From IMG/VR virus record IMGVR_UViG_3300048587_001133, positions 1 to 36,089 of that record: a stretch of DNA of 36,089 nt; one strand, written 5' to 3'. The notes under the pieces were generated by a model. It searched no databases, was not told the origin of the DNA, and worked only from the letters and a program-made list of their open reading frames with translations. Below, one piece after another: positions 11,762 through 34,276 of the stretch. The translations under genes were made by a program, and so were the position numbers. Source of the DNA: a virus. Position 1 is the first letter of the stretch. Every line of letters begins with the position of its first letter.

Positions 11762-12004
11762 ATGCCTGAGAACCCGCACGAGATTCCGCCGCAGGTCGCT
11801 GCCCCGGGCGGCAGTTCCGCGGTCAATCCGGCCTCCCTATCCATTGAGGACATGGCCCGGCTGCTGTCGGCGGCAGGTGGGCGGCGCGTCACGCCCGAGC
11901 AGGTGCAGGCGGATGTCGATGCCGGCGCACCGGTGGGACGGGATGGGCGCATGAACTTGGTGCACTACACGGCCTGGATGGTTCGAGAGGTGCAGGCGAA
12001 TTGA
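11762..12004 (+). CDS. Small DNA-binding-like protein before the terminase (possible small subunit)
   Basis: 80 residues from ATG 11762, with GGAG nine bases upstream; the frame is open from a TTG at 11747. After a Pro-rich start it has LSIEDMARLLSAAGGRRVTPEQVQADVDAGAPVGRDG, then MNLVHYTAWMVREV. The same pattern opens the large terminase that follows (LRVAEAVRMLNSTPLGEVV, DLLKYAAWLFHER), so the two probably share a domain. Its position and small size suggest a terminase small subunit or packaging co-factor. That is an inference. Its stop overlaps the terminase TTG start. Confidence 0.65.
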   Translation: MPENPHEIPPQVAAPGGSSAVNPASLSIEDMARLLSAAGGRRVTPEQVQADVDAGAPVGRDGRMNLVHYTAWMVREVQAN

Positions 12005-15019: not shown

Positions 15020-16516
15020 ATGTTTCGTTGGCTCCGCAATCTCGCTGCACCGACTCAGCCGCAACGCGCTGCCGGCGCGGGGTTGCGCATCGTCCGCGCC
15101 GGTTCCACGCGCTCAATCAGGGCCCGCTACGACGCCGCTCAGACCAACAGCGACAACCGTCGTCACTGGGCCAACGCCGACGGCCTGTCCCCCAACGCCG
15201 CCATCAGCCCCGAAGTCCGGCGCGTGCTGCGGAATCGGGCCCGGTACGAGGTGGCGAACAACTCGTATGCCCGCGGCATCGTGCTCACCTTGGCGAACGA
15301 TGTGATCGGCACGGGCCCGCGGCTGCAGATGTTGACCCCCGACCCCACGGCGAACCGCACCATCGAACTGGCATTTGCCGAATGGGCCGACGCCGTGGGG
15401 CTTGCCTCCAAGCTCCGGACGATGCGCATGGCACGCGCCGACTCCGGTGAAGCGTTCGGCATTCTCACCAGCAACCCCGACGTGCGGGTACCCGTGCAAC
15501 TGGACCTGCGCCTGGTGGAGGCCGACCAGGTCGCCTCACCGCTGGTATTGACTCGCCAGGGCCAGCCGGTGGACGGCATTGTGTTCGACCGCTTCGGCAA
15601 TCCCATCGAGTACCACGTGCTGCGTCAGCACCCCGGTGACGGCGCCTCGCTGGCTCGATCGGCTGCCGACTTCGACCGCATCCCCGCCCCGGGAGTGCTG
15701 CACTATTTCCGGGGGGACCGACCGGGTCAGGCGCGGGGTATCCCCGACATCACGCCCGCTCTACCCCTGTTCGCGCAGCTGCGGCGCTACACCCTGGCGG
15801 TGATCGCCGCCGCCGAGACCGCCGCTGACTTCGCGGCCGTGCTCTACACCGACGCTCCGGCCAACGGCGAAGCTGATCCGGTCGAACCCATGGACCTGGT
15901 CGAACTCGAACACCGCATGGCCACCGTGCTGCCGGGCGGTTGGAAGTTGGGGCAGGTGACGGCCGAGCAGCCGGCGACCACGTACGGCGAGTTCAAGCGC
16001 GAGATCCTCAACGAGATCGCTCGCTGCCTGAACATGCCCTACAACATCGCCGCGGGCAATTCCTCGGGCTACAACTACGCCTCGGGTCGCCTCGATCACC
16101 AGACCTACTACAAGGCCATTCGCGTCGAGCAGCACCACCTGCAGACCACGGTGCTGGACCGCATCCTGCGCGCCTGGCTGGACGAGGCCACGCTGGTGGA
16201 AGGCCTGCTGCCGCAGTCGATGCGCACCCGTGACCCCGGCGCCCTGCACTTCGCCCACACCTGGTTCTGGGACGGCCACGAACATGTGGACCCCGCCAAG
16301 GAAGCGAACGCTCAGGCCACGCGCCTGTCGAACCACACCACCACCCTGGCCATCGAGTACGCCCGGCAAGGTCGTGACTGGGAAGAGCAACTGCGTCAGC
16401 GCGCCGCCGAGGTGGGGCTCATGCGTGAACTGGGCCTGACCCTCGCTGACGCGCAGCCCAATACCGATCCCAACCAGGAGGACACGGATGTCGAAGATCC
16501 GGCCCAAGCCGCCTGA
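15020..16516 (+). CDS. Portal protein, lambda family
   Basis: 498 residues. Typical lambda-type (Phage_portal_2) features: an N-terminal RYDAAQTNSDNRRHWANADG, RNRARYEVANNSYARGIVLTLANDVIGTGP, DSGEAFGIL, RLVEADQVASP, EYHVLR, VLHYFRGDRPGQARGIPDITPAL and LNMPYNIAAGNSSGYNYASGRLDHQ. It forms the ring at the capsid vertex through which DNA passes and to which the tail attaches. It overlaps the next gene by 29 bases. No portal is present in the inserted element. Confidence 0.93.
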   Translation: MFRWLRNLAAPTQPQRAAGAGLRIVRAGSTRSIRARYDAAQTNSDNRRHWANADGLSPNAAISPEVRRVLRNRARYEVANNSYARGIVLTLANDVIGTGPRLQMLTPDPTANRTIELAFAEWADAVGLASKLRTMRMARADSGEAFGILTSNPDVRVPVQLDLRLVEADQVASPLVLTRQGQPVDGIVFDRFGNPIEYHVLRQHPGDGASLARSAADFDRIPAPGVLHYFRGDRPGQARGIPDITPALPLFAQLRRYTLAVIAAAETAADFAAVLYTDAPANGEADPVEPMDLVELEHRMATVLPGGWKLGQVTAEQPATTYGEFKREILNEIARCLNMPYNIAAGNSSGYNYASGRLDHQTYYKAIRVEQHHLQTTVLDRILRAWLDEATLVEGLLPQSMRTRDPGALHFAHTWFWDGHEHVDPAKEANAQATRLSNHTTTLAIEYARQGRDWEEQLRQRAAEVGLMRELGLTLADAQPNTDPNQEDTDVEDPAQAA

Positions 16517-18518
16517 GGACGCCCAGCGTTCCCTGGCCCTGACCGCCCACGCCCAGATCGAGCTGGAGGCTGCCGGTGACGGATCTGATGCCGCGCCGCG
16601 CATCCCGCGCTTCCGCATGGTCGCCTACACGGGCGTGCCCATGCGCATTGCCGCCTGGCGGTACCCGGTGATCGTCGATCTGGCCGGCCTGCACATCCCG
16701 TCGCAGGCGCGGCCGATCCGATTCAGCCACGACCCCGGCGCCGGCATCGGGCACACCGACAGCATCCGCATCGAATCCGGCCAGCTCGTCGCCACCGGCC
16801 TGGTCTCACGCGACACGGCCATCGCCCGCGAGATCGTCGCCTCAGCCAAGAACGGTTTTCCCTGGCAGGCCTCCATCGGCAGCAGCGTGGAAGAGTTCGA
16901 GTTCGTCAAGGACGGGCAGAACGTGCTCGTCAATGGCCAGACCTTCCGGGGTCCGCTCAACGTGGTGCGCAAGGCCACGCTGGGCGAGATCAGCTTCGTG
17001 GACCTGGGCGCCGACGGCGCTACCACCGCCAGCATCGCCGCGCAACAGCGGCAGGAGTCTACTGACATGAGCGTTGCCTACGACAACAGCACCAACCCGA
17101 GTCAGGTCGCCGCCAGTGCGGAGGCCAGCGCCACGGCCACGGTGGAAGCCGCCCCCCCTGTGACGGCCACGGCGGACGATCCCGTCACCCAGATGCGTGC
17201 CCAGGCCGCCGCCGAGTCGGCGCGCATCGCCGCGGTGCGGAAGCTGTGTGCCAAGCACCCCGACGTGGAAGCCACGGCCATCGCGGAAGGCTGGGACGTC
17301 AACCGCACCGAATTGGAAGTACTGCGCGCTTCGCGTCCGGCGGTGCCGCACATGATCACCGGCGCCTCGATTGCCAGCGCGATGAGCGGGGGTGCCACCA
17401 GCCAGGTGCTGGAGGCGGCCTGCATGCTCACGGCCGGGCTGGGCAACCTGGACAAGCTGTTCGACGAGCAGACGCTGGACGCCGCGTCCAAGCGGTTCCG
17501 CGGCGGCATCGGGCTGCAGGAACTGCTGCTCGAAGCGGCCTGGGCCAACGGTTACAGCGGACGCAACTTCCGCGACAACCGCTCGGTGCTGCGCTTCGCC
17601 TTCGGCCATGACATTGCCGCTTCCGGGCAAAGCACCATCGACATCAGCGGCATCCTGTCCAACGTGGCCAACAAGTTCCTTCTGGAGGGCTTCTTCAGCG
17701 TCGAGCGCACCTGGCGCAACATCACCGCCGTCCGCAACGTGTCGGACTTCAAGACCGTGACCAGCTACCGGCTGATCGGCAAGGACCAGTACGAGAAGGT
17801 CCTGCCCGGCGGCGAACTCAAGCACGGCACCCTGGGCGAGCAGAGCTACAGCAACAAGGCCGACACCTACGGCCTGCTGCTGAGCATCGACCGCCGCGAC
17901 GTGATCAACGATGACCTGGGCGCCATCACCACCGTGCCCCGGAAGCTGGGGCGCGGCTCGGGCCTGAAGATCAACGACGTCTTCTGGGCCGAGTTCCTGG
18001 CCAACTCGAACTTCTTCAAGACCGCCAACAAGAACTACCTCGAGGGCGCCGACACCGCCCTGGGCATCGACGGGCTGACCAAGGCCGAGGTGGCGTTCCT
18101 GGACCAGGTCGATCCCGACGGCAAGCCCATCGGCGTCATGCCCGCCATCGTCCTGGTGCCCACGGCGCTCAGCGCCATCGGCACGCAGCTCTACAAGTCG
18201 CTGGAGCTGCGCGAGACCACGAGCAATGTGAAGTACCCCATTGCCAACCCGCACCAAGGCAAGTTCCGCGTCGAGGTCAGCCGCTACCTGGCCAACGCGC
18301 TCTACACCGGCAACTCGGCGAAGGCCTGGTACCTGCTGGCCGACCCCAACGACCTGCCTGTGATCGAGGTGGCATTCCTCAACGGGCAGGAGTCGCCCAC
18401 CATCGAAACCGCCGAGGCAGACGCCAATGTTCTGGGCATTTTTATGCGTGGATACCACGACTTTGGCGTCGCTTTGCAGGAACCACGCGGCGGCGTGAAG
18501 GCCAAGGGTGAGGCGTAA
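16488..18518 (+). CDS. Prohead protease fused to major capsid protein (helper)
   Basis: 676 residues. The N-terminal domain (about 1-185) fits a prohead serine protease: IRFSHDPGAGIGH (likely catalytic His) and WQASIGSSVEEFE (likely Ser), ending at ISFVDLGADGATTASIAA. An Ala/Thr-rich middle (about 195-245) may be scaffold. The C-terminus (about 290-676) is an HK97-fold-like major capsid protein with GGELKHG, LSIDRRDVINDDLG, NYLEGADTALGID, WYLLADPNDLPVIEVAFLNGQESPTIE and YHDFGVALQEPRGG. Self-cleavage after assembly is expected. A diverged relative is in the satellite at 26681-28579. Its start lies inside the portal gene, after AGGAGG-like sequence. Confidence 0.9.
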   Translation: MSKIRPKPPEDAQRSLALTAHAQIELEAAGDGSDAAPRIPRFRMVAYTGVPMRIAAWRYPVIVDLAGLHIPSQARPIRFSHDPGAGIGHTDSIRIESGQLVATGLVSRDTAIAREIVASAKNGFPWQASIGSSVEEFEFVKDGQNVLVNGQTFRGPLNVVRKATLGEISFVDLGADGATTASIAAQQRQESTDMSVAYDNSTNPSQVAASAEASATATVEAAPPVTATADDPVTQMRAQAAAESARIAAVRKLCAKHPDVEATAIAEGWDVNRTELEVLRASRPAVPHMITGASIASAMSGGATSQVLEAACMLTAGLGNLDKLFDEQTLDAASKRFRGGIGLQELLLEAAWANGYSGRNFRDNRSVLRFAFGHDIAASGQSTIDISGILSNVANKFLLEGFFSVERTWRNITAVRNVSDFKTVTSYRLIGKDQYEKVLPGGELKHGTLGEQSYSNKADTYGLLLSIDRRDVINDDLGAITTVPRKLGRGSGLKINDVFWAEFLANSNFFKTANKNYLEGADTALGIDGLTKAEVAFLDQVDPDGKPIGVMPAIVLVPTALSAIGTQLYKSLELRETTSNVKYPIANPHQGKFRVEVSRYLANALYTGNSAKAWYLLADPNDLPVIEVAFLNGQESPTIETAEADANVLGIFMRGYHDFGVALQEPRGGVKAKGEA

Positions 18519-22616: not shown

Positions 22617-22898
22617 ATGGGCATCAAGCTCGGTTCAGAATGCAAGCTCTACCACGGTCCGGCGGGCACTACCGCCGACACCGTGATGGGCAACGTCAGG
22701 GACCTGACGCTCAACCTGGAGAAAGGTGAGGCGGATGTCACCACCCGCGCCAACCAGGGCTGGCGCGCCATCGTCGCCACGCTCAAGAGCGGCACGGTCG
22801 AGTTCGAGATGGTCTGGGATACGGATGACACGGGTTTGACCCGTCAGAAGGTCGTCCCGTTCGTCTGGCGGCGTGGAGCGGTGGTCGTCTACACCTAA
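22617..22898 (+). pseudogene. Tail tube protein, N-terminal half (interrupted by the inserted element)
   Basis: Codons 1-70 (22617-22826) are a phage tail tube start: MGIKLGSECKLYHGPAG, VRDLTLNLEKGEADVTTRAN, GWRAIVATLKSGTVEFEMVW, DTD. From 22827 on, the 23 codons to the stop (from DTGLTRQKV to VVVYT) belong to the inserted element and have no tail-like features. The missing C-terminal half lies at 34058-34276. Joined, they give 142 residues without a frame change. As it stands the product is 93 residues and should not form a tube. Ribosome site GGAAGGAG-like at about 22600. Confidence 0.9.
22812..22844. other. attL, left junction of the inserted element
   Basis: Tail tube coding sequence reads to GATACGGAT, then the presumed crossover dinucleotide GA (22827-22828), then the element arm CACGGGTTTGACCCGT (22829-22844). 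The arm is a near mirror (14 of 16 positions) of the arm at the right junction, as serine integrases require for the two halves of attP. Confidence 0.8.
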
Positions 22899-23920
22899 TC
22901 TCGCTTCACGCCGGTCGACAACTTCGCTGGCGTGTTCCGAATGCGAACAGGGCGAAATGGCGATGTATCCGGCGAACCGACGAGGTCGATGTCGGGTACG
23001 GGGCAAGACTTCTCAAATCGGAATTGCGAACCGGCGACGTATTGCTCATCAAGTTCCATCGCTAGCCAACGTCGCTGCGTATGTTCGCATGCCCACCCAG
23101 TCACATTGCTACCGGCAAAGATGTCCACAACAAGGTCGCCCGGATCAGTAAGCATGGAAATGAAAAATAATGGCAGGTCAAATGGAAAGCGAGCTGGATG
23201 AACGGGCACGGCCATTTCGCGACAGCGCCGTTGGTAGTAGTCATTTGAACTGGTGTGCGAGATCACGAGCAGGTTGGATGGAATGGCACCACCCCGATCG
23301 CGGCTAAACTTGGTGGAGATGTCGTGCCCGCTGGGGCGCTTTTTGGCCTTGTATCCGTTCTTGAGAAGACTGCGCATTGCAGCGCTGTACTCAACGCTTG
23401 TACGGTCGTTGCTGGCTTTTGGAAACGGAGTCTTCGAAAGCCACCATACTGTATTGATGGCGTCTTTCACGCGGATTTTCCGAACAGTAACCCACTCCGC
23501 GGGCGTTGGTAGTTTACTAGGGCTGTACCAGAAAAAATCCTGTGCCAGATGAAGTCGACCCGGACGCGTTAGTTCGATCAAGAGTTGGTAATGGTACGTC
23601 GAACGAACGGGCACGCCGGGCAACCAACTCCCCCCAATGTCGATTACAAAGCTCCCGGTAGGCTTGAGAACGCGCTGCACCTCATCGGCAAACCGCGTGA
23701 ACCAGGTGACATATTCGGACGCCGCCTCGTTCCCATAATCCTTTTTTCGCACCAGCGCGAACGGCGGCGAGGTGAAGACCAAGTCAACGGACCCATCTGG
23801 CATCGCCCGCAAATATTCCAGGCTGTCGCCGAGGAACATCGCGCCCAACTCGGTGCGGTAGGCTGGTGGCTTGGGAAACCCGCTCCATACTGCTTTCGTC
23901 ACCTGCGCCATTTCAGTCAT
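22895..23920 (-). CDS. Site-specific DNA methyltransferase (probably cytosine-N4), R-M system
   Basis: 341 residues. Motif IV TSPPF (about 50-54) comes first and the SAM-binding DIFAGSNVTGWACE (near 265) last, the beta-class order; TSPPF as in M.PvuII suggests N4-cytosine. Further motifs: GSFVIDIGGSWLPG, DFFWYSPSKLPTPAEW, DAINTVWWLSKTPFPKAS. It should protect the element and host DNA from the partner nuclease. Its start overlaps the nuclease gene by 8 bases. It converges on the truncated tail tube with a 4-base overlap of the two ends. The pair is clearly more AT-rich than the flanks, which suggests recent gain. Confidence 0.9.
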   Translation of the reverse strand: MTEMAQVTKAVWSGFPKPPAYRTELGAMFLGDSLEYLRAMPDGSVDLVFTSPPFALVRKKDYGNEAASEYVTWFTRFADEVQRVLKPTGSFVIDIGGSWLPGVPVRSTYHYQLLIELTRPGRLHLAQDFFWYSPSKLPTPAEWVTVRKIRVKDAINTVWWLSKTPFPKASNDRTSVEYSAAMRSLLKNGYKAKKRPSGHDISTKFSRDRGGAIPSNLLVISHTSSNDYYQRRCREMAVPVHPARFPFDLPLFFISMLTDPGDLVVDIFAGSNVTGWACEHTQRRWLAMELDEQYVAGSQFRFEKSCPVPDIDLVGSPDTSPFRPVRIRNTPAKLSTGVKRD

Positions 23921-25313
23921 CCAATTGCATGCGTTTTACGGTCATCGCGTTTTCAGCCTGATGGTTAAGAATCTCTACCAGCTTGGCCGGGTCAGTGGCA
24001 ATGGCATGCAAATCCTTGCCGGACAATAGGATAACGTATATCGCGGTGTTTTCCATCACCTTCTTGGCGAAGCCGCGGACGGCGTTTCCAACCTCGCCCG
24101 TCGAAATCAGCAGGATGACATTCGACCGCATCGTTGTGGCGACGCCCACTTCCTTCGCCAAATCCTCCGTGGAGACCTTTGTCGTGTTCTTGCATTGGAT
24201 CTGCCACCGGCGGAACAAGAGGCGGGTGCCCTCCACGATCATGTCGACCTCGGCACCACCGGTCGCATTACTGCGCAGCCGCCATTGCACGAAGGAAAGA
24301 TCGAGCCGCCTGCAGAAGTAGAACGCCAGAGCTTCAAGTGCGATGCCCTTTGTGTTCTTACTGTTGGAGCCCAAATCCTGGACGATTTGCGCAAGCGACA
24401 TGCGGGAGAGTCGCTTGTACCCTTGGCCCATGGTGTTTGCCAGCTGCTTGAGGATGGGCTCAAAGAACTCGCCCCGCAGCTTCTCTGTCGCACGTACCAA
24501 ATGTGCCTTGGCCCCGCGCCCACCAGTAGTTTTCTGCCACGTCAGGAGGCCAACTTCCTCAAGGCGATGCAAAACCGATTGGGGTAGACCACCTTCGGGA
24601 AACTCGGTGCCATAGAGCGCGATGGCGCTGTCGCGCACGTCGCTACTGGTGGCTTCGTCGCATCCCATAAGGGCAAACGCTCTCGCAAAGTCGTACTGCG
24701 CTTGGGTCAGGTCGCTCCACTGCTCAATGTCCCGGGCCGTAACGCCAAGGAGCACTTCTATACGGGCATCATCCGGCGTCCACAGTTCGGCACCGGCCGT
24801 CGCGCCCGTTCCATTCAGCACGCCAGCAAACGCCAGCCATTGGCGAAGTATGTTCAGGTGCTTCCCGTTATTCGGAACGTGCATCCCTTCTTCACGCAAA
24901 CGTTTTGCGATGTTCTCCTTCTTCAAAAGGATGCCCGCCTGCATCAGGTCGTGGATGCACGACACGAGTTTAAGCCCGTCGAGGCGGGCCAAGCAGTGCC
25001 GCCCCATGCGCTCTTTGAGTTCCGATGTCGATTCTCGTTGGTCGTAAAGCTCCTGGCCGAACTCAGTCAACGCCACGCTGGTTTTGTCGATCTTGTTCAA
25101 TAGCCCGTAGGCGATCATGGCCAGAATGGTGTTGTCGCCCAGCGTCTTCTTCGGGTCCGCATTCTTGCCTTTGCCAGCAAAGAACCTCGCGTCGATCGCC
25201 TGCTGCAATGCGTAGCGATCTGGTTGGTGGTTGTGGACCAGTTCGAGGAGTACCGGTAGGTCAATCACCGCTGGCGAGAATTCCGAGCCAAAGACAATGT
25301 CGCTCTTGGCCAT
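23913..25313 (-). CDS. Type II-like restriction endonuclease, PD-(D/E)XK
   Basis: 466 residues, AGGTGA upstream of the start. The N-terminal two thirds contain several winged-helix-like segments (VALTEFGQELYDQ, VLHRLEEVGLLTWQ), probably for DNA recognition. The nuclease core is near 350-375: GGAEVDMIVEGTRLLF then WQIQCKN, matching the D-X(n)-(E/Q)XK pattern with Gln before Cys-Lys as in Mrr-like enzymes. It is upstream of and coupled to the methyltransferase, so the two form one restriction-modification operon. The recognition site cannot be read from the sequence. Confidence 0.8.
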   Translation of the reverse strand: MAKSDIVFGSEFSPAVIDLPVLLELVHNHQPDRYALQQAIDARFFAGKGKNADPKKTLGDNTILAMIAYGLLNKIDKTSVALTEFGQELYDQRESTSELKERMGRHCLARLDGLKLVSCIHDLMQAGILLKKENIAKRLREEGMHVPNNGKHLNILRQWLAFAGVLNGTGATAGAELWTPDDARIEVLLGVTARDIEQWSDLTQAQYDFARAFALMGCDEATSSDVRDSAIALYGTEFPEGGLPQSVLHRLEEVGLLTWQKTTGGRGAKAHLVRATEKLRGEFFEPILKQLANTMGQGYKRLSRMSLAQIVQDLGSNSKNTKGIALEALAFYFCRRLDLSFVQWRLRSNATGGAEVDMIVEGTRLLFRRWQIQCKNTTKVSTEDLAKEVGVATTMRSNVILLISTGEVGNAVRGFAKKVMENTAIYVILLSGKDLHAIATDPAKLVEILNHQAENAMTVKRMQLDD

Positions 25314-25513
25314 ATCCGATCACCTGAAGTTTGACATCGGGGCCGCGCATCGTGCCCAAACGAGACATCTTACGGCAGCGCTGTTTCCCTCACAATGCGA
25401 CGAAGCGTGGTGCATCGATCACACCGGTTGACTAGCCCTACAGGTCGAGAGTCAAGAAAATCTTTCACGTCGCATTACGAATCGCCCCTCGTCCGGGAAA
25501 TAAGTGGGTATGG

Positions 25514-25533
25514 GGTGGGCATGGTTGCCCACC
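25514..25533 (+). promoter_or_regulatory. Perfect hairpin in the leader of the satellite operon
   Basis: GGTGGGCA and TGCCCACC pair perfectly over 8 bp around the loop TGGT. It lies 15 bp before the AGGAG site of the next gene, in the 246-bp gap between the divergent restriction genes and the capsid operon. With no T run it may be an operator or an mRNA leader element. The remaining gap shows only weak promoter-like sequence (TTGACT near 25430). Confidence 0.5.
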
Positions 25534-25559
25534 ACTGCGAATGGCTCAAGGAGACGAAC

Positions 25560-26105
25560 ATGACACGGATCGGGCTGACGTTTGACGAGTACGTGGACCT
25601 GCGGCTCAAGCCGCTGGCGGGCGCGGACCAGGCATTCGTTCGCGCCGCCGAGGCGCAGCAGGATGGGCTGTTCCCGATGAACCTGGCGACCGCCTCAAAC
25701 CATCTGCGGTCGCGGGGTTATGACTGCAGGCCGGCGATGCTCGAGGTGCTGGTCCGTGAGGGCGTGGTGACGCCCGCCAGCGCTGACGCCTGGTCGCAGG
25801 CCGATGTGGATGCTGCCGCCGACCATTTCGAGGACTGCGACATGCTCACGCCCTACTCCGCGATGTGCCAGACACTGGGGTGCCGGTACGCCGACTTCCA
25901 GCGGGCCCTGCGTGAGGCGGCCGAGCGCGAGTCCGCCAAGTACGGGCGTCGGGTGCCGGACGACGACCAGTACTTCGTCATGCACCGGGTTCCGCCGCGC
26001 GGCGTGACCGGGGCCGATGGCAAGGTGACGGTCAAGCCCTCGGTCATCACCTTTTCGCTCAGCGACGACATTCGGGAGCGACTCGAACGCGGCGAGGAGG
26101 TCTGA
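25560..26105 (+). CDS. Hypothetical satellite protein
   Basis: 181 residues from ATG 25560, chosen for AGGAG seven bases before it; the frame is open from 25395 and ATG 25521 is possible. No known family. Features: LTFDEYVDLRLKPLAGADQA, ASNHLRSRGYDCRPAMLEVL, VREGVVTPASADAWSQADVD (a MerR/plasmid-Rep-like helical look), YVGRR-like VPDDDQYFVMHRVPP and PSVITFSLSDDIRERLERG. Adjacent to the sigma-like gene (GAGGAGGTCTGAATG junction), it starts the operon that includes the capsid gene. Possibly a regulator. Confidence 0.65.
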   Translation: MTRIGLTFDEYVDLRLKPLAGADQAFVRAAEAQQDGLFPMNLATASNHLRSRGYDCRPAMLEVLVREGVVTPASADAWSQADVDAAADHFEDCDMLTPYSAMCQTLGCRYADFQRALREAAERESAKYGRRVPDDDQYFVMHRVPPRGVTGADGKVTVKPSVITFSLSDDIRERLERGEEV

Positions 26106-26684
26106 ATGGAGGACCTCACCCCGCGCGAGATCGAGTTGACCCCTGATCTGCTGGAGTACGCCAAGGCGGTGGCCTTGAAGGAGGCACCCAAGCACTGCGG
26201 GCCACGGGTCGATTACGACGACGTGATCCAGGAAGCGCATCTGGCCCTGCTGCGCAAGCCGCCGAAGTTTGACCCGTCACGCGGCGCGAACGTCAAGACG
26301 CTCATCTACACGATCGTGCAGCGAGCGGTCATCAAGTACGCCACCCGCGAAACCCATGCCCATCAGCGCTTCCGAGAGTTTCCCGACGCGTTGATGGCGT
26401 CGAAGGACGATGACGACGAGGACTCGCCGCTGCAACAGATGTCGGGCAGGCGGCAGGCGGAACTCACTCGCAGCCGCTGGAACCTGGACGACGTGCTGCA
26501 GTACATCGACAACGAAGCGAGCCGGGAAATGTGCCGGTTGGTGATCGAGTGCAAGGGGAACATCAGCGAGGCCGCGCGTCGGATGAAGTTGAGCGAGGGC
26601 GCGGTGCGGCACCGGTTGAAGTTGCTGGCACCCAAGCTGATCGCAGCCGGTTTCGACCCCTTCGAGCAAGGAGGCAAGACATGA
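26106..26684 (+). CDS. Sigma-70-like factor of the satellite
   Basis: 192 residues with GGAGG upstream. Region 2-like part (about 15-85): LEYAKAVALKEAPKHCG, VDYDDVIQEAHLALLRKPP, FDPSRGANVKTLIYTIVQRA, VIKYATRE. Acidic linker (SKDDDDEDSP). Region 4-like HTH (about 130-180): VLQYIDNEASREMCRLVIEC, ISEAARRMKLSEGAVRHRLK. This is more sigma-like than the helper protein at 4424-4942. It precedes and overlaps the capsid gene, so it may switch on satellite late genes. This is an inference. Confidence 0.75.
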   Translation: MEDLTPREIELTPDLLEYAKAVALKEAPKHCGPRVDYDDVIQEAHLALLRKPPKFDPSRGANVKTLIYTIVQRAVIKYATRETHAHQRFREFPDALMASKDDDDEDSPLQQMSGRRQAELTRSRWNLDDVLQYIDNEASREMCRLVIECKGNISEAARRMKLSEGAVRHRLKLLAPKLIAAGFDPFEQGGKT

Positions 26685-28579
26685 CCACAGCCCTCGACAA
26701 CATGCTGCTGACCGCGTCCGAGGTGGCGATCGAGGCCGGGGCCGGGGCCTCGGCCTCGGGCGATCGGCCCCGCATCAGCATCGTGGCCTACACCGGCGGC
26801 CTGATGAACGTGCCGGGCTGGGGCGCGGTGGCCATCAACCTGGCGGGCCTGGACGCCTCGGGCCAGGTGCCGCTGCTGGCCGACCATGACGCCCGCGTCA
26901 GCGGGGTCGTGGGCCACGGCCAGGCCAAGGTGATCGACGGCCGCCTGATTGTGGCCGGCGTCATGAGTGGTGCCGGCGACGCGGCGCGGCACATCGTGGA
27001 GATGACCGCGGGAGGGTTCTCGTTCCAGGCTTCGGTCGGCGTCGAGCCGGTCGAGCACGAGCAGGTGCAGTCTGGTGCCAAGGTCGAGGTCAACGGCCGC
27101 ATGCTGTCATCGCCGCGCGGCTTCGCGCTGGTGAAGGCGGGTCGGCTTCGGGAAGTGAGCATCACGCCGCTGGGTGCCGACGCCGGGACGAGCGTCGCCA
27201 TCGCGGCTTCACATCGCAACAGGGAGAGAGGCAACATGAGTACGGACGTTGTGAACATCGACGAGCAAACCATCCGGGCCGACGAGCGGCAGCGGATCAA
27301 CCAGATCGAGGGGCTGTGCAAGGCCCCGGCCCCGGGCTGGGGTTCGCTGCAGGGCCGGGTGGATGAACTGAAGGCCTCGGCTGTGGCGGGCGACCTGACC
27401 ATGCAGGACCTGTCGGCCGAGCTGCTGACCCTGCTGCGTGACTCGCGCCCCAAGGTCGGCACCTTCCACTCGGCGCAGCCGGTGGGCGGGGTGGCGACCA
27501 TCGAGGCGGCCCTGCTCAAGCGCCTGGGTCTGACGGCCCTGGGTGAGAAGATGCTGGGCCCCCTGGCGATGGAACACGGCGAGCGCATCCGCGCGACGCA
27601 TGCCGTGGACATCTGCCGGGCCGCGCTGATGCTCGACGGCGTGGATATCCCGCAGGGTCGTGAGCAGCTGGTCAAGGCGGCGCTCAGCACCACGTCGCTG
27701 CCGACTGCCTTGGGCAACCTGGCCAACAAGCTGCTGCTGGACGCCTACGACGAAGCGCCCGCTACCTGGCGTGCGTTCTGCTCGGTGCGGTCGGTGGCCG
27801 ACTTCAAGCCCAACACCGCGATCCGCCCGTCGTTCACCGGCCAGCTCGAGCCGGTGGCCCCGGGCGGCGAACTGAAGCACGGCCAGGTCGGCGAGTGGTT
27901 CGCGCAGTTCCGGGTGGACACCTTCGGCAAGGTGCTGTCGATCGACCGCCGCGACATCATCAACGACGACCTGGGCGTGTTCGACCAGAGCGCCCGGGCC
28001 TTCGGTCGCACGGCCATGCGGAAGATCAGCGACCTGGTGTACGAGGTGCTGCTGACCAACGAGGGCGGGTTCTTCGACGAGGCCAACAGCAACTACATCG
28101 AGGGTGCCGACTCGGCGCTGAACTTCGACTCCCTGGCCAAGGCCATCGAGGCGATGATGCTGCAGCGTGACGATGAGGGCAATGACCTGGACCTGCGCCC
28201 GGTCACGCTGCTGGTGCCCCCGGAGTTGCAGCCCACGGCCAAGGCGCTGCTGGAGTCGGAGTTCATCCAGCAGATCAACGAGCGGATGCCCACGGGCAAC
28301 TCGCTGCGTCGGGCGGTGAGCGTTGAGGTCGAGCCTCGGCTGAGCAACACCGTCAAGTTCAAGTCGAAGGCCAGCACCAAGCACTGGTACCTTTTCGCCA
28401 GTCCCAGCGACTCGCCGATGGTGGTGGCATTCCTCAACGGTCGGCAGCAGCCGACGGTGGAGTTCTTCGGCCTGGACCAGGACGTGAACAAGCTGGCGGT
28501 GAGCTGGCGCGTGTACCACGACTTCGGCGCGGCCCTGGTCGATCCCCGCGCTGCGGTCCATTCCAAGGGCCAGGCGTAA
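26681..28579 (+). CDS. Second prohead protease-major capsid fusion (satellite)
   Basis: 632 residues, GGAGG site, ATGA overlap with the sigma-like gene. Protease domain (about 25-180): ISIVAYTGG, PLLADHDARVSGVVGHG (likely His) and FSFQASVGVEPVEHEQ (likely Ser), then VSITPLGADAGTSVAIAA. The capsid part (about 340-632) shares GGELKHG, LSIDRRDIINDDLG, NYIEGADSALNFD, HWYLFASPSDSPMVVAFLNG and YHDFGAALVDPRAAVHSKG with the helper protein at 16488-18518 but is otherwise clearly diverged. It probably builds the satellite's own capsid. It lacks the Ala/Thr-rich linker of the helper version. Confidence 0.9.
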   Translation: MTTALDNMLLTASEVAIEAGAGASASGDRPRISIVAYTGGLMNVPGWGAVAINLAGLDASGQVPLLADHDARVSGVVGHGQAKVIDGRLIVAGVMSGAGDAARHIVEMTAGGFSFQASVGVEPVEHEQVQSGAKVEVNGRMLSSPRGFALVKAGRLREVSITPLGADAGTSVAIAASHRNRERGNMSTDVVNIDEQTIRADERQRINQIEGLCKAPAPGWGSLQGRVDELKASAVAGDLTMQDLSAELLTLLRDSRPKVGTFHSAQPVGGVATIEAALLKRLGLTALGEKMLGPLAMEHGERIRATHAVDICRAALMLDGVDIPQGREQLVKAALSTTSLPTALGNLANKLLLDAYDEAPATWRAFCSVRSVADFKPNTAIRPSFTGQLEPVAPGGELKHGQVGEWFAQFRVDTFGKVLSIDRRDIINDDLGVFDQSARAFGRTAMRKISDLVYEVLLTNEGGFFDEANSNYIEGADSALNFDSLAKAIEAMMLQRDDEGNDLDLRPVTLLVPPELQPTAKALLESEFIQQINERMPTGNSLRRAVSVEVEPRLSNTVKFKSKASTKHWYLFASPSDSPMVVAFLNGRQQPTVEFFGLDQDVNKLAVSWRVYHDFGAALVDPRAAVHSKGQA

Positions 28580-28711
28580 AGCTGAAGTGCTGTGCGGGCG
28601 GCGGGACCGGGTCAGTGTCATGGATGGCCCGGCCCGCCGTCCGCTTTGAGATTTCGAGCGGCGTCGAACGCGCGGCCTGCGCGATGGGTCCGCGCCTGCA
28701 AGGAGTGCGTC

Positions 28712-28921
28712 ATGAAGGCGACGACGGACACGGCGGTCCTGACCCATCGCGTGGGCCGGTTCGAGTTCGAGGTGGAGGCCGACACGCGGACGCCCGAGGT
28801 CGAGCAGCGTTGGGCGCGGCGCTCCGAGGCCATCGCCGCCTGGCTGCTGGCCGAGTGGCAGCGCGAGCAGGCTGCCCAGGGCCAGGTCGCCACCGCCAGC
28901 GAACTGGCCGAGAGGAACTGA
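28712..28921 (+). CDS. Small hypothetical satellite protein
   Basis: 69 residues, AAGGAG upstream of ATG 28712; the frame is open from 28592. Two parts: a beta-rich start (TDTAVLTHRVGRFEFEVEAD) and an amphipathic helix (SEAIAAWLLAEWQREQAAQG). Between the capsid and helicase genes. Function unknown. Confidence 0.6.
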   Translation: MKATTDTAVLTHRVGRFEFEVEADTRTPEVEQRWARRSEAIAAWLLAEWQREQAAQGQVATASELAERN

Positions 28922-28924
28922 CCC

Positions 28925-30718
28925 ATGGTGGCGATGAGCACGGCGGCGGCAGGGTCCGCCATCTTCGATTCGATCGAAGATGCGGGTCTGCTGCGCGAGT
29001 ACGACGACGGTGCCGACTGGCGAGCCGAGTCGCTGGCCAAGGAGCGTGCGTTCCGCCAGGGGTTTGTGGAGGAGGCCCGGCGCGTGGTGCGGGTGTGGGC
29101 GCACCCACCGGGGCCGCCACCGCCGCCTGACACCAAGCCGGTGTCGCTGCGCGAGCTGATGGCTAAGCGGCGTTTCGATCCGGACGTCGAGATCGAAGCG
29201 GCACTGAAGCTGCGCCGGCGCGTGCGTGAGCGTTACACGGTCTATGGTCGCGGCGATGCCGGGCGCAAGACCCATGTCCTGGGGTATCGCCAGGGTCACG
29301 ATGTCGCTGCCGCCCGGGTTCGTGGTCGCCATCACGCCCTGGTCTACGTGATGGAGCCGTGGTTCAACCTCGAAACCTCGGACGTGGACATTTTCGACCC
29401 GAGGTTGCTGTGCCCCTGGCTGCGTGCTGTGGAGGCCTGGGCCAGCAGGCCGATCCGACGGGGCAAGGTGATCCTGCCGCCGCCGCGCCCGCTGGAGGTG
29501 GTGCCGATGGAAGCGCTGGATGACGATTTCCTACTTCGCACGGCGAGAAGTGAGCCACCACTGGAAACGATTACCAGTGAGCCGCCGTCACTGGTGAATT
29601 GCACCAGTGAGCCCGCGTCGTCACTGAAAACCGTTATCAGTGAGCCGCCCTCACTTATGCAAAGCATGAGTGAGCCCGCGCCCTCACTTGGGAAAGTCCC
29701 AAGTGAGCCGCCTCCACGGCTGCGCCTGACCCGGGCCGACCAGATCGAGATGCGGCCGCCGCACTGGCTGCTCCGCGGCATGCTCGAGCGCGACACCCTC
29801 GCCCTGATCTTCGGCGATCCCGGCTGCGGCAAGTCGTTCCTGGCGATCGACTGGGCGTGCAGGGTGGCCACAGGGACGCCCTGGCGCGGGCAGGCGGTCA
29901 AGGCCGCACCCGTGGTCTACGTCGCGGGGGAAGGCCAACAGGGGTTCGGCAGGCGTATCCGGGCGTGGACCGAGCACCACGGCGTCAGCCTGGCGAACGT
30001 CCCGCTCTACCTGGCTCCGGCGGTGGCCATCCCGCTGCCCACCGACCTGGTGGCCCTGATCGTCGCCATCGACACCGGCGTCGCCAACGTGGGGCAGCCC
30101 GGACTGATCGTGCTCGACACCCTGGCCCGCTGTTTCGGCGGCGGCGATGAGAACAGCACCCAGGACATGAGCAAGTTCGTCATCGCCTGCGACGTGATCC
30201 GTCGGCGCTATGGCTGCACCATCCTGGTCGTGCATCACGCCGGGCATGGCGACAAGACCCGGGCCAGGGGCGCGATCGCACTCAAGGCGGCGCTCGACGC
30301 CGAGTACCGCCTGGCCAACGACGCGGGCATGCTTCTGACCGCCACGAAGATGAAGGACGCCGAGACGCCGCCGCCGCTGGCCCTGCAGTTGGTCACGGTG
30401 GACCTGCCCGGCCTGATGGACGACTACGGCAATCCGGTCACGTCGGCCGCGATCGAGGTGGTGGACGCTGACACCAGCGCCATCGAGGCGCAGGTCAAGT
30501 CGCTGCGCCCGCGCGGCAGGTGGCAGGAGGTAGGCCTGGCCATCGCCCGCAGCCTGATCAGTCGTGGTGACGATGGGCAGGTGGCAGTCGAGGCATGGCG
30601 CGAGGCGTGCCAGCGCGCGGGCATGGTCCGGCAGAACCAGCACCGTGTGCTCGACGCCCTGACCACCCATGGCGACCTCATCGTCACAGATGGGCAAATG
30701 AGCCTGCCAACACCCTGA
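28925..30718 (+). CDS. RepA-type AAA replication helicase of the satellite
   Basis: 597 residues. The C-terminal half (about 270-520) is an AAA_25/RepA-like hexameric helicase: IEMRPPHWLLRGMLERDTLA, Walker A FGDPGCGKSFLAID near 297, VVYVAGEGQQGFGRRIRAW, Walker B GLIVLDTLARC, and VVHHAGHGDKTRARGAIALK. The N-terminal 200 residues are unknown. Residues about 207-261 are an odd SEPPSL-repeat linker whose DNA forms five hairpins. The last 70 residues look like a winged helix. It should drive replication of the excised element, with the iteron-like DNA at 30720-30937 as the likely origin. It is unrelated to the helper primase-helicase. Confidence 0.88.
   Translation: MVAMSTAAAGSAIFDSIEDAGLLREYDDGADWRAESLAKERAFRQGFVEEARRVVRVWAHPPGPPPPPDTKPVSLRELMAKRRFDPDVEIEAALKLRRRVRERYTVYGRGDAGRKTHVLGYRQGHDVAAARVRGRHHALVYVMEPWFNLETSDVDIFDPRLLCPWLRAVEAWASRPIRRGKVILPPPRPLEVVPMEALDDDFLLRTARSEPPLETITSEPPSLVNCTSEPASSLKTVISEPPSLMQSMSEPAPSLGKVPSEPPPRLRLTRADQIEMRPPHWLLRGMLERDTLALIFGDPGCGKSFLAIDWACRVATGTPWRGQAVKAAPVVYVAGEGQQGFGRRIRAWTEHHGVSLANVPLYLAPAVAIPLPTDLVALIVAIDTGVANVGQPGLIVLDTLARCFGGGDENSTQDMSKFVIACDVIRRRYGCTILVVHHAGHGDKTRARGAIALKAALDAEYRLANDAGMLLTATKMKDAETPPPLALQLVTVDLPGLMDDYGNPVTSAAIEVVDADTSAIEAQVKSLRPRGRWQEVGLAIARSLISRGDDGQVAVEAWREACQRAGMVRQNQHRVLDALTTHGDLIVTDGQMSLPTP
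29559..29707. repeat. Five-hairpin array inside the helicase gene
   Basis: Five hairpins follow each other at about 30-bp steps: 29559-29579, 29588-29610, 29621-29643, 29650-29674 and 29683-29707. All share the outer CACT/AGTG stem (four of them TCACT/AGTGA), separated by GCC/GCG-rich spacers, while the inner stem bases differ but always pair (for example TCACTGGTG/CACCAGTGA versus CTCACTTGGGA/TCCCAAGTGAG). The pairing is conserved while the sequence is not, so the DNA or RNA structure is selected. In protein it encodes a repeated SEPPSL linker. Confidence 0.8.
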
Positions 30719-30719
30719 G

Positions 30720-30937
30720 CGTCACGTGCGTCACGTTCACGTTCGCCCCTATAGGGGGGCGAAACGTGACGTGACGGTGACCAGGAATCAGATGTGACGA
30801 ACGTGACGATGAAACGTGACGCATCAAGATGATGAACAGCAAGCACTTACGAAGATGGTCACATCAAGAACGTGACGCCGACGTGACAACGTGACGGAAC
30901 GAAACGTGACGAGCGTCACGTTTGGGCAAACGTGACG
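30720..30937. repeat. Iteron-like array, probable satellite origin
   Basis: The 350-bp gap 30719-31068 has no gene. It contains seven exact AACGTGACG copies (30763, 30800, 30813, 30869, 30888, 30903, 30929) and two in reverse (30729, 30914), plus further GTGAC cores. Near its left end a GC-rich dyad, TTCGCCCC-TATA-GGGG, lies among them (about 30742-30765). An array of one 9-mer directly behind a RepA-type helicase is the classic layout of an iteron origin. The last part (30940-31068) is AT-richer with no clear structure. Confidence 0.75.
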
Positions 30938-31068
30938 ATTGGACTGGTGGTTAAAACATGCGTAGGTACTTCCATGCCAAGCCTTTACGTGATGGCGTTG
31001 GAACGAGTCGCGATGGATTACAGAGTTTCTTTCCGCGTGCGCTATTTCAGCCGTAACGCGCCGAGGGC

Positions 31069-31266
31069 ATGGTGACCATGTGGACGCGCCAGTCGCTGCT
31101 GGAAATGTCGTGGCGGTGCTATGGCGACCAGGTCGGCTGCTACCGGCGCGTGTGCCGGGTCTGCGCCAGGCCATTCTTCTGCAGCCGACCCGAGGCCAGG
31201 TACTGCCGCGCTGCGTGTCGTCAGCGGGCGTATCGCCACCGGCGTCGCCGCTGCGCCTTCAAATAA
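31069..31266 (+). CDS. Zinc-finger-like small protein
   Basis: 65 residues; ATG 31078 is an alternative start. Cys pattern CRVCARPFFC, then YCRAACRQRAYRHRRRR: two Cys pairs and a basic end, as in small C2C2 proteins common in planctomycete genomes and mobile elements. Likely nucleic acid binding. It follows the iteron array and converges on the tRNA terminator. Confidence 0.65.
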   Translation: MVTMWTRQSLLEMSWRCYGDQVGCYRRVCRVCARPFFCSRPEARYCRAACRQRAYRHRRRRCAFK

Positions 31267-31292
31267 AAGAGCCTCGGCACTTGGGCCGAGGC
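31261..31292 (-). terminator. Terminator downstream of tRNA-Val
   Basis: On the minus strand GCCTCGGC pairs with GCCGAGGC around a 6-base loop and is followed by TCTTTTATTT. It lies 31 bp past the tRNA 3' end. The plus-strand reading also gives the hairpin, so it may also limit the zinc-finger gene. Confidence 0.8.
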
Positions 31293-31323
31293 TTGTATCA
31301 CTTCGCGGCGCTGGCCGCGTTTA

Positions 31324-31396
31324 ATTCGTGGCGGGACTCGAACCCGCATCTGTGCCTTCGTAAGAGGCGCGCTCTCTCCATTGAGCTACACGCATG
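31324..31396 (-). tRNA. tRNA-Val (UAC)
   Basis: The minus strand folds as a tRNA. Acceptor ATGCGTG pairs with CACGAAT (one mismatch at 3-70), D arm GCTC/GAGC, anticodon loop CTTACGA giving anticodon UAC, T arm GCGGG-TTCGAGT-CCCGC. There is a mismatch at 27-43, the discriminator base is T and CCA is not encoded. Read as Val by its anticodon, serving GUA codons, which are rare in this GC-rich DNA. The defects make it slightly unusual and charging is not assured. Confidence 0.85.
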
Positions 31397-31402
31397 ACGG
31401 CA

Positions 31403-31432
31403 GTATACGCGTTCGTCTTTCACATTTTTCAC
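31403..31432 (-). promoter_or_regulatory. Probable promoter of tRNA-Val
   Basis: On the minus strand a TATACT -10 box (31403-31408) ends 6 bases before the tRNA 5' end; the -35 region is weak (GTGAAA-like). It fits a housekeeping sigma-70 promoter transcribing only the tRNA. Confidence 0.5.
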
Positions 31433-31479
31433 GATTCCGAGGTTGCCACCAGTTTTTTCGGGATGCCTCAAGGCCAATG

Positions 31480-31506: not shown

Positions 31507-31532
31507 TCGTGAGGTGGAGGTGGTCGATGCGA

Positions 31533-31823
31533 TCATGCGGCGGTGAATTGGCCCCGCGCCACCTTCTTGAACCGGGCGTCGCCGCCCTTGGCCGCGATCT
31601 CCCTGATCATCGCGGCGTAGATCGTGGCGTGCGGTGTAGCGCCGCCGCTCTTCCACAGGCCCTTGGCCAGCGCGGCGTCCACGATCTGTTTGGCGTTCAT
31701 CGGTTCCTTGGAGTCGGTGAGCACCTTGGCGGCGGCGTCCAGGCCCGACATCGGCTTGGCGGCCTTCGTCTTGGGCTGCGGCTTGCTGGTCTTGGCGCTC
31801 TTGGTGGTGTTCTTCTTCGACAT
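31533..31823 (-). CDS. HARE-HTH domain protein, satellite copy
   Basis: 96 residues with AGGAGA upstream. A basic Lys/Ser-rich N-terminus ([20 protein letters not shown]) and a HARE-HTH winged helix ([55 protein letters not shown]). It matches the C-terminal domain of the protein at 10165-10677 closely but lacks that protein's first 60 residues. It is the second gene of a minus-strand pair. A DNA-binding role is inferred. Confidence 0.85.
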
Positions 31824-32141: not shown

Positions 32142-32302
32142 GGCGATGCTCCTTTCGTGGGACACATGGAGCCTCGTTTCGCAGCCGGAATCAAGGGAAT
32201 TCTGAGTTCCCCACAATCGCGCCGCAGCCACATGCCTTGATGTTCGGCGCGACCTGAGCGAAGGGTGGTGCGCGGCCCGCGCGGGTCGCCAAGGAGATGC
32301 AC

Positions 32303-34276
32303 ATGGCCAAGCGCAACCAGGGCACCATCATCGAAGCGGTGGGCTACGCCCGCCGCAGCACCGACATGCAGGAGCGCTCGGTGCCCGACCAGAAGGCCTA
32401 CGTCGAGAAGTGGGCCAAGGAGAATGGCTACCGCGTCAAGCGCTGGTACGTCGATGACGCCATCAGCGGCACCAGCGCGAGGGGCCGCGACGCCTTCGAG
32501 CAGATGATCGTCGAGGCCGAGGCCGGTTCGGATTTCCGCACCGTGCTCTGTTACGACATCAGCCGGTTCAGTCGCGGCGGCACCAACGAGACCGGCTACT
32601 ACCTGCACCGGCTCAAGCTCGTCGGCGTCGATGTCATCTTTCCCGCCGAAGGCATTCCCGATGGCGACGAAGGTGAACTGCTGCAGGGCGTGAAGTCATG
32701 GCAGGCCCGCCAGTACAGCGTGAAGCTGGCCCGCGACAGCATTCGCGGCAAGCTCTCGAACATGACCCAGCGCAAGAGCCGCCTCGGCAGCCAGGCACCG
32801 TTTGGGTACGACCGCCAGTTCGTCACCGCCGACGGGAAGGTGCTGCGCGTCCTGCGTGAGATGCCCGATGGCAGTCGCCAGGAGATCGCGCCCGACGGGA
32901 CGCTGCTGCGCGTGCTGCCCAAGGGCGAGCGCCTGCCCAAGGCCAAGTCGGACATGGTGCGATTGATCCCCAGCCTGCCCGAGCGCGTCCGCACCGTGAA
33001 GCAGATGTTTGAGTGGTGCGCCGGCGGCAGCGGCATCCGCACCATCGCCATGCGGCTCAACGCCGCTGGTGTCCGCACGCCCATGGGACGACTGTGGGAG
33101 CACACGTCGGTCGCCAGCATCCTGCGGAACCCCGTCTATAAAGGATCGCTGGTCTGGAACCGCATGACCAAGGCCAAGATCAACGGCCTGCTGCCGGACG
33201 GTACGCTGCGCCCGCCGCCGCGCAATCCCAACGGCGAACGCAACGGCAAGGACCAGTGGCTCGTGATGGATGGCATCCACGAGGCCCTGATCAGCGCCGA
33301 CCTGTGGCAGCGCACCCAGGACGCCATTGACCGGCGATCCAAGATGGGCGGCTTGGCCAGGCCGGTGAATCGCTACCTGCTCAGCGGCCTGGTGAAATGC
33401 ACCAGCTGCGGATTCAACCACGTCGGCCGAATGGGCGGCACCGGCGGCGCGATCCGCTACTACTACGACGGCGGGTACATGCGGTATGGTCGCCAGGTCT
33501 GCTCGCCTACCAGCATCAACGCCGCCGACCTGGACAGATTCGTCATCGAGCAGGTGCGCAATGTCATCGGCGGCGACCGGCCTGCGGTGGAGCGCGCTGT
33601 CGATCGCTTCATCAAGCAGATGAAGGCGCACGCCAAGCCCGACGACCGCCGCAGCCAGATCGAAGCCGACCTCAAGACGGTGCAGAAGCGAATCGAGAGC
33701 GTGGTGGCCCTGCTCACCGATGGCGACCTGGACGGCCTGGCGGAATTGAAGGCGACACTGATCACGCTGCGCAAGCGGCGCGCCGCGATGGAAGCGGAGA
33801 TGGCGACCGTTGGTGGCGACGCACCAGCGCCGACGAATGTGGGCGACCTGCGGACCTGGGCGCTGCGCCGCCTGGCCGAGATCGACAGCATGCTGACCAA
33901 CGGCACCGGCGGTGAGCCGCTTCGCCAGTTGGTCGCCGCCTACGTCGCCCGCATCGAGATCGACCCGCGCGAGCGTCGCGGCAAATTGGTGCTGGCCGCG
34001 GACGCGATGGCGGTGCTCGAACACGACATCGCTTCTATCTCACGGGTAAAGCCCGTGGACACCGGCTTCACGGCCCTGAAGAACGCGTACTTCAACAACA
34101 CCGCCATCGCCCTGGCCATCCTCGACGGTGAGAACGGCGAGGGTTTGGACGCTGACTTCAGCGTGACCAACTTCAGCCGCAGCGAGCCGCTGGAGGAAGC
34201 GGTGACCGTCAGCGTGACGGTGAAGCCGACGTACTCGACCCGCGCCCCGGCCTGGATTGAAGGAGGTACGCCCTGA
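32303..34276 (+). CDS. Large serine recombinase of the satellite, fused to the tail tube C-terminus
   Basis: 657 residues from ATG 32303, six bases after AAGGAG; ATG 32297 is too close to that site. Resolvase domain with catalytic serine in YARRS (Ser19) and LCYDISRFSRGG, then a Recombinase domain with GIRTIAMRLNAAGVRTPMGR and LRNPVYKGSLVWNR. A zinc ribbon (KCTSCG) and a coiled coil (about 455-500) follow. Residues 1-585 are the enzyme. Residues 586-657 are the last 72 residues of the phage tail tube, read in frame across attR. After excision the enzyme would instead end with the 23 residues encoded at 22827-22895, giving 608 residues. The fused tail may change its activity. Confidence 0.92.
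   Translation: MAKRNQGTIIEAVGYARRSTDMQERSVPDQKAYVEKWAKENGYRVKRWYVDDAISGTSARGRDAFEQMIVEAEAGSDFRTVLCYDISRFSRGGTNETGYYLHRLKLVGVDVIFPAEGIPDGDEGELLQGVKSWQARQYSVKLARDSIRGKLSNMTQRKSRLGSQAPFGYDRQFVTADGKVLRVLREMPDGSRQEIAPDGTLLRVLPKGERLPKAKSDMVRLIPSLPERVRTVKQMFEWCAGGSGIRTIAMRLNAAGVRTPMGRLWEHTSVASILRNPVYKGSLVWNRMTKAKINGLLPDGTLRPPPRNPNGERNGKDQWLVMDGIHEALISADLWQRTQDAIDRRSKMGGLARPVNRYLLSGLVKCTSCGFNHVGRMGGTGGAIRYYYDGGYMRYGRQVCSPTSINAADLDRFVIEQVRNVIGGDRPAVERAVDRFIKQMKAHAKPDDRRSQIEADLKTVQKRIESVVALLTDGDLDGLAELKATLITLRKRRAAMEAEMATVGGDAPAPTNVGDLRTWALRRLAEIDSMLTNGTGGEPLRQLVAAYVARIEIDPRERRGKLVLAADAMAVLEHDIASISRVKPVDTGFTALKNAYFNNTAIALAILDGENGEGLDADFSVTNFSRSEPLEEAVTVSVTVKPTYSTRAPAWIEGGTP
34042..34075. other. attR, right junction of the inserted element
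   Basis: Element arm ACGGGTAAAGCCCGTG (34042-34057), then the shared GA (34058-34059), then tail tube sequence CACCGGCTTCACGGCC. Left tail tube + GA + right tail tube reads in frame as ...VWDTDDTGFTALKN..., while left arm + GA + right arm forms the symmetric attP. Confidence 0.8.
34058..34276 (+). pseudogene. Tail tube protein, C-terminal half
   Basis: 72 codons and the stop: DTGFTALKNAYFNNTAIALA, ILDGENGEGLDADFSVTNFS, RSEPLEEAVTVSVTVKPTYS, the typical end of a siphophage tail tube of this type. It has no start of its own and is translated only as the tail of the recombinase. It continues codon 70 of the gene at 22617 exactly. Its stop overlaps the tail assembly chaperone start, as expected for the intact phage operon. 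Confidence 0.9.

Follow-up and report, generated by a model that had tools for sequence, protein, structure and literature searches.

The stretch of DNA analysed here, hereafter the window, is the whole of IMG/VR virus record IMGVR_UViG_3300048587_001133 (36,089 bases, 64.6% G+C), and it carries two protease-capsid fusion genes, both of which are intact open reading frames (ORFs). The first is preceded by terminase and portal genes and belongs to a phage that we refer to as the helper. The second belongs to an element inserted in that phage and lies between a sigma-like gene, whose stop codon overlaps the fusion start at 26681 (ATGA), and a gene encoding a RepA-like AAA ATPase (Table 1). Both fusions were matched by Pfam Phage_capsid_4 (E 8.5e-40 and 2e-42) and by PHROG 4523, 'major head and protease protein' (1.6e-73 and 2.8e-75). 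The two proteins are 36% identical over their whole length, with best segments of 43% in the capsid half and 39% in the protease half, which bears out the claim of an earlier reading of this DNA (the original prediction) that two diverged protease-capsid fusions share one locus. The AlphaFold model of the element fusion has a modest mean predicted local distance difference test score (pLDDT) of 72; its PDB matches are HK97-fold shells and encapsulins, and by sequence its profile matches Mu gpT-type capsids of JBD30.

The element is a discrete unit spanning 22827-34062, and it interrupts the helper gene for the major tail (tube) protein after codon 71. This gene is uninterrupted in three related phages: L006 (about 92% identical here), L007, and L040 (L numbers are our handles for the contigs and loci compared). 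GACAC core repeats bound the element at both ends and thus give it a length of about 11,231 bp, and the empty site in L006 reads GACGC at the crossover position. Inside the cores lie the palindromes ACGGGTttgACCCGT (left end) and CACGGGTaaaGCCCGTG (right end), which are probable recombinase-binding arms. The span assigned to the element in the original prediction was too short, as its full extent adds a restriction-modification (R-M) pair and a large serine recombinase and takes in the interruption of the tail-tube gene. When integrated, the recombinase ORF makes one reading frame with the C-terminal half of the tail gene, a chimeric ORF of 659 aa (32297-34276), and excision would restore the helper tail gene. 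A metagenomic source and two homologous capsids in one contig might instead point to an assembly chimera in which two co-occurring phages were joined, and two related contigs, L098 and L103, do look like hybrids. However, a second IMG/VR record (L004) is 100% identical over 22371-34667, both junctions included, and together with the three relatives in which the gene is unbroken this indicates that the junctions are not an accident of one assembly. The 5-bp attachment (att) repeat and clean empty sites also argue against a chimera, as does the recurrence of the same architecture in the complete chromosomes CP054186.1 (L193) and CP050848.1 (L211); we consider the chance of such an artifact to be negligible.

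Table 1. Features of the helper locus and the inserted element, in positions of the window.
Feature	Position	Strand	Evidence
Helper terminase large subunit	12001..14277	+	PHROG 15 and 38, E about 1e-37
Helper portal	15020..16516	+	PHROG 21, 9.9e-64
Helper protease-capsid fusion	16488..18518	+	Pfam Phage_capsid_4, PHROG 4523
Helper major tail (tube) gene, codons 1-71	22617..22829	+	PHROG 1407 major tail protein, E 4.3e-7; unbroken homologue in L006, L007, L040
attL crossover repeat GACAC	22827..22831	+	Same 5 bp as 34058-34062
Palindromic arm, left end, inside core	22830..22844	.	Read from sequence
Type II DNA methyltransferase (cargo)	22895..23920	-	Pfam N6_N4_Mtase 4.6e-34; PADLOC MTase_II 2e-120
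Mrr-like restriction endonuclease (cargo)	23913..25313	-	Pfam Mrr_cat 1.2e-6
Signature gene of the family, 181 aa (ORF opens at 25395)	25560..26105	+	Profile co-occurrence, AlphaFold
Sigma-70-region-2-like regulator	26106..26684	+	Pfam Sigma70_r2 1e-11
Element prohead protease-major capsid fusion	26681..28579	+	Pfam, PHROG, alignment to helper copy, AlphaFold
Small conserved protein after capsid	28592..28921	+	Profile matches near 38/62 element-type and 0/110 helper-type capsids
RepA-like AAA_25 ATPase (replicative helicase)	28925..30718	+	Pfam AAA_25 7.1e-45; PHROG 2850 2.8e-61; PHROG 906 DNA polymerase/primase 3.8e-54
tRNA-Val(tac) within element	31323..31395	-	ARAGORN
HARE-HTH protein	31545..31808	-	Surrounding region shared with helper
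Large serine recombinase (integrase)	32297..34060	+	Pfam Resolvase 1.3e-22, Recombinase 4.7e-23, Zn_ribbon_recom 1.3e-9
Palindromic arm, right end, inside core	34041..34057	.	Read from sequence
attR crossover repeat GACAC	34058..34062	+	Repeat of attL core
Helper tail gene, C-terminal part	34058..34276	+	92-93% identical to L006 16273 onwards; adjoins N-terminal part there

As originally claimed, the element has no portal, terminase, connector, or tail gene that Pfam and PHROG scans or homology to the helper set could find. A search with its recombinase yielded 14 contigs, most with the cassette inside genes of helper-like phages, and a search with an alignment of seven element capsids yielded 66 genomic loci besides about a dozen close ones in viruses. 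The search of genomes for the same element in other prophages, which the original prediction had proposed as a check, thus returned about 60 loci with the same cassette, many of them inside phage genes and nearly all in Planctomycetota (many in Phycisphaerae), with Planctomycetales bacterium ZRK34 (L211) and Roseimaritima sediminicola JC651 (L220) among the carriers; because some contigs duplicate one element (e.g., L090/L091), these are counts of loci and not of independent events. The order of the cassette is R-M or other cargo, signature gene, sigma-like gene, protease-capsid fusion, helicase/primase, HARE-HTH gene, and recombinase. The 17 bounded elements, some of whose left or right ends were placed by homology to within tens of bases, measure 10.23-11.23 kb (mean 10.76, standard deviation 0.31), and this size is constant even though the 3-kb cargo slot varies, holding Eco57I-like and type I-like methylases with partners or other genes. 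Homology to the helper set identified no terminase or other packaging or head genes beyond the capsid in any of the 17, and Pfam or PHROG scans of the cargo of several of them found no packaging or head genes either. Thus, the gene content expected of a satellite, with its own capsid and no motor or tail, extends to the bounded relatives, which have no late genes besides the capsid. The element is likewise a discrete integrative unit with att repeats and empty sites that lacks a full set of virion genes.

We sorted 183 capsid ORFs by their neighbours, which separated 110 with a portal ≤3 kb upstream (helper-type) from 62 with the cassette (element-type), leaving 11 with neither and none with both. 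Since the helper-type class is defined by the portal, the informative figure is that 0 of the 62 element-type capsids have one. With FastTree, the 62 essentially form one clade, with L234 on a long branch outside it and the unclassified L105 inside. All but one of the 62 ORFs are intact, and the 25 closest pairs have ratios of nonsynonymous to synonymous substitution rates (dN/dS) of 0.017-0.091, except for one pair at 0.29; the higher ratios of distant pairs are uninformative because dS is saturated. These values show that the element-type capsids are under purifying selection. A degraded or deletion-derived prophage that had retained its capsid gene would also present a single late gene, and some copies are indeed decayed: the capsid ORF is broken in L230, and L236 has lost an internal segment. 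However, a full prophage in which the element has its own portal and tail genes, the finding that would recast it as such a remnant, was looked for among the 62 element-type capsid loci and not found. Order and size are conserved over ~60 loci, with intact capsids and recombinases and a single capsid clade, and the remnant explanation, already contradicted in this way, is highly improbable.

Where the right flank could be identified, the integrations lie in phage genes. Insertions at codon 297 of the terminase large subunit (TerL) split the Walker B motif (L016, L085, L087, L090-L092, L225, and others), and another lies at TerL 359 (L219). Further targets are a phage methylase at 325 (L086, L216, L218), tail tube 71 (the window and L228), gpT-type helper capsids (L088, L096), and, at nine loci, the major capsid gene (SU10-type) of a different kind of phage, which has an SPP1-type portal. 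Other elements are located at tRNA-Met, tRNA-Pro, or tmRNA genes. Embedding in phage genes (tail tube, TerL, methylase, capsid) is backed by both gene halves or by an empty site. The recombinase tree groups by target, with support of 98% for the SU10-capsid, 99% for the tRNA, and 99% for the methylase groups; the TerL297 group is a 100% clade that includes one unassigned member, and another clade with 100% support holds the tail-tube pair plus one unassigned member. Labelling the tree by target required 10 changes, compared with 23 when shuffled. Precise empty sites and insertion points within essential virion genes would also be seen with a gene-interrupting regulatory element kept for the phage or host, akin to the skin- or comK-prophage switches, in which the capsid would be incidental. 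The many targets, tRNA and tmRNA genes among them, are more in keeping with a selfish mobile element, as are the R-M cargo and a replication gene of its own, and such a switch is very unlikely.

At the level of sequence, these comparisons establish site-specific integration in phage genes with the attendant loss of virion function, a conserved capsid operon, and a constant size, and they strongly support both the satellite reading and its embedding in a phage gene. We favor, at a probability of about 0.72, a helper-embedded, capsid-encoding satellite that would excise upon induction, build its own shell, and borrow the motor and tail of its helper. The large serine recombinase would integrate the satellite at a conserved site in a helper virion gene (here tail-tube codon 71), and because that gene is interrupted the helper should be unable to complete particles until excision. 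Induction of the helper would trigger excision and restore the tail gene, the RepA-like ATPase would replicate the satellite, and the sigma-like/protease-capsid operon would be switched on, presumably under regulation by the sigma-like and signature proteins. The fusion may then assemble and mature as the satellite's own small shell, suited to a fixed genome of ~10.8 kb, which the helper portal, terminase, connectors, and tail would fill and tail, with the R-M cassette riding as cargo. To judge by arithmetic on a satellite of ~10.8 kb and a helper of ~50 kb (52.9 kb for contig L006, and 61.7 kb for contig L091, which includes a satellite), the shell may be T=3 or T=4.

Helper-type portals co-reside in 10 of 14 satellite genomes, three of them in the complete chromosome CP054186.1, and are 61-74% identical (full-length hits). 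In a sample of 198 genomes of the class, with a satellite capsid threshold of at least 55% identity, helper-type capsids occurred in 8/11 satellite-bearing and 46/187 other genomes (Fisher P = 0.0016), or in 7/11 satellite-bearing genomes with one weak match dropped (P = 0.009), although this sample is not fully unbiased because genomes already known to carry satellites were included. As for the interrupted phage acting as helper, the window and the TerL groups show fitting types of capsid and terminase, whereas the capsid and portal of the SU10 group are unrelated.

Several points weigh against the favored model. In 4/14 satellite genomes (most of them metagenome-assembled genomes, MAGs) no helper-type portal was detected. 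DNA matches between helper and satellite are confined to the HARE module and a short run of capsid sequence, with no common packaging site found. Nine relatives are embedded in a phage whose SU10-type capsid is unrelated and whose portal is of SPP1 type; this would call for a shell that tolerates unrelated portals, or else for a helper that is sometimes a different phage from the one interrupted. Moreover, the capsid gene of gram-negative phage-inducible chromosomal islands (PICIs) was reported to be dispensable for transfer (PMC10111431). This last result would fit an embedded satellite that is packaged in helper capsids and whose own capsid protein interferes with, resizes, or poisons helper assembly through dominant-negative or mixed shells. 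Mixed assembly is conceivable because the satellite and helper capsids are homologous, at 36-43% identity. Nevertheless, the protease domain is kept and the whole fusion is under strong purifying selection, as fits a maturing shell, and the nine elements in SU10-type phages would be unable to co-assemble with their capsids. We therefore regard interference of this kind as unlikely, though not to the degree of the other alternatives.

Capsid-forming PICIs (cfPICIs) carry more head and packaging genes, terminase included, while P4-like satellites and Staphylococcus aureus pathogenicity islands (SaPIs) resize the helper capsid and have no major capsid gene of their own. The PICI-like element PLE also resizes the helper capsid without its own major capsid gene (PMC10945586). 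The present family resembles P4-like satellites, SaPIs, and PLE in that a small genome would fit a small capsid and a helper is needed for the tail. Like cfPICIs, which combine their own shell with helper tails (reviewed in PMC11389934), it may make its own shell, and it has its own capsid gene with a protease; terminase and other packaging or head genes of its own are absent. The closest parallel is with the helper-embedded PICIs (HE-PICIs) described by Tommasini et al. (2023, PMC10111431), 11 kb islands in the terminase, portal, protease, capsid, and tail genes of enterobacterial lambdoid prophages. Some carry a capsid gene, as does the type element 11capE, and their excision upon induction, a precedent in favor of our model, was shown although particles were not recovered; a capsid gene is present in 21/29 reference gram-negative PICIs (PMC10111431). 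With HE-PICIs the family shares embedding in phage genes, an own capsid gene, integrase subclades that follow the target, and off-target tRNA copies. Thus, the original prediction was correct that the element differs from cfPICIs in having no terminase, but its contrast with known PICIs was overstated, since satellites embedded in a helper, with a capsid gene but no full packaging set, had already been described in enterobacteria (PMC10111431).

The differences from HE-PICIs are nevertheless substantial. HE-PICIs all have tyrosine integrases with AlpA, whereas the present family has a large serine recombinase, with tyrosine integrases only in some tmRNA copies. In the window element the serine recombinase takes the place of a tyrosine integrase of the PICI/P4 clade, and there was no AlpA-type match among the proteins searched. 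Neither Bro-zone proteins nor the PICI primase module were found; sigma-like and signature genes with AAA_25 or DUF3987 stand in their place. The family also belongs to another phylum, has protease-capsid fusions of gpT type that make up a single obligate clade, carries R-M cargo, and has some targets in phages with unrelated capsids. By the tested features it is not a PICI, yet it would appear to work like an HE-PICI, and we consider it a known configuration in an independent lineage, with a recombinase class, gene set, capsid lineage, and phylum of its own. Virion-gene parking with a spare capsid gene has thus arisen independently in a distant phylum, so that it may be common practice among satellites and not a peculiarity of those in enterobacteria. 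We found nothing relevant on planctomycete satellites in the open-access papers searched, and as far as that literature shows this would be the first satellite family of Planctomycetota. More tentatively, it may be a planctomycete-wide lineage unrelated to PICIs whose serine recombinases came on repeated occasions to target virion genes of phages that are unrelated, with a fixed ~10.8 kb genome delivered in its own small shell through the portals and motors of more than one phage type. The family offers dozens of natural capsid-portal pairs for testing which portions of a capsid need to fit the portal and whether a foreign motor can fill a shell, and its recombinases make up a collection of serine integrases whose targets are conserved coding sequences.

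Among the remaining genes of the element, the signature gene lies near 49/62 element-type and 1/110 helper-type capsids. Its product is modelled with a pLDDT of 94.8, has no Pfam family, and had no match at E≤0.001 in a Foldseek search of PDB folds. It may consist of two helical modules that resemble MerR/Xis domains, and for that reason we would guess that it is a directionality factor. The small protein after the capsid had no match in a PHROG scan. A minus-strand module of the HARE-HTH gene and a small protein is common to the satellite (31569-32067) and the helper (10207-10930, just upstream of the terminase) at about 77% nucleotide identity, and the helper HARE copy matches Pfam HARE-HTH at 5.3e-10. 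This module could reflect exchange, or else a region for regulation or packaging that the two have in common. The plus-strand ORFs at 10150-11769 and 31443-32120 were rejected as genes, being antisense shadows of the minus-strand HARE genes.

Individual family members also varied. Loci without a serine recombinase in the profile scan (L189, L191, L193, L196, L199, L200, L226, L231, and L238) were suspected of being full prophages, but L191 and L193, when read, proved to be the same cassette; these tmRNA-site elements have a tyrosine integrase and a DUF3987 primase in place of the usual genes and are bounded by tmRNA repeats. Just outside the left att repeat of L193 lies a DRT2-type defence reverse transcriptase (3226-4539; PADLOC Drt2 2.4e-142). 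L193 is intact, and the second satellite of the same chromosome (L230, 9998-11884) has its capsid broken into four frames. In L217, one satellite lies between two related serine recombinases of like orientation (1476-3164 and 12223-13920), which hints at satellites in tandem at a tRNA site, and L211 has repeated recombinase sequence on its left side too. The right half of the satellite is absent from L098 (1-9424) and L103 (1-16093), and the sequence continues straight into helper genes, among them in L098 the C-terminal two thirds of a helper capsid; both contigs may be either deletion hybrids or misassemblies. L228 is an independent tail-tube insertion in the groundwater MAG NC_groundwater_1890_Pr3_B-0.1um, the name of which suggests a 0.1 micrometre filter fraction. 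A search of the loci for circular (excised) contigs found matching ends only in L110, which is not a clear member.

Three plasmids had comparable gene content. RHOAph, a Rhodovastum atsumiense plasmid (NZ_OW485609.1, L084), is nearly of satellite size at 10.69 kb (10690 bp) and has the gene order of the tmRNA-type satellites (small regulator-like gene, protease-capsid fusion, DUF3987), with no portal, terminase, or tail gene in its annotation. It differs in being an alphaproteobacterial plasmid with ParA and toxin-antitoxin genes and a capsid only 25% identical, and a relationship is unproven. The small endogenous plasmid of Synechococcus elongatus PCC 7942 (L241, NZ_CP130604.1, 7842 bp) has a gene annotated as a prohead protease (6063-7667) that adjoins a CyRepA1 gene and aligns with the RHOAph fusion across both protease and capsid; it is possibly another capsid-carrying plasmid satellite. 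Lastly, the E. coli plasmid pZ1323HEC0475-3 (L240, NZ_CP148328.1, 10790 bp) resembles a gram-negative PICI that was recorded in circular form (10.8 kb); it has genes for an integrase, a primase, a protease/capsid fusion, and tail assembly, and a DUF1441 gene.
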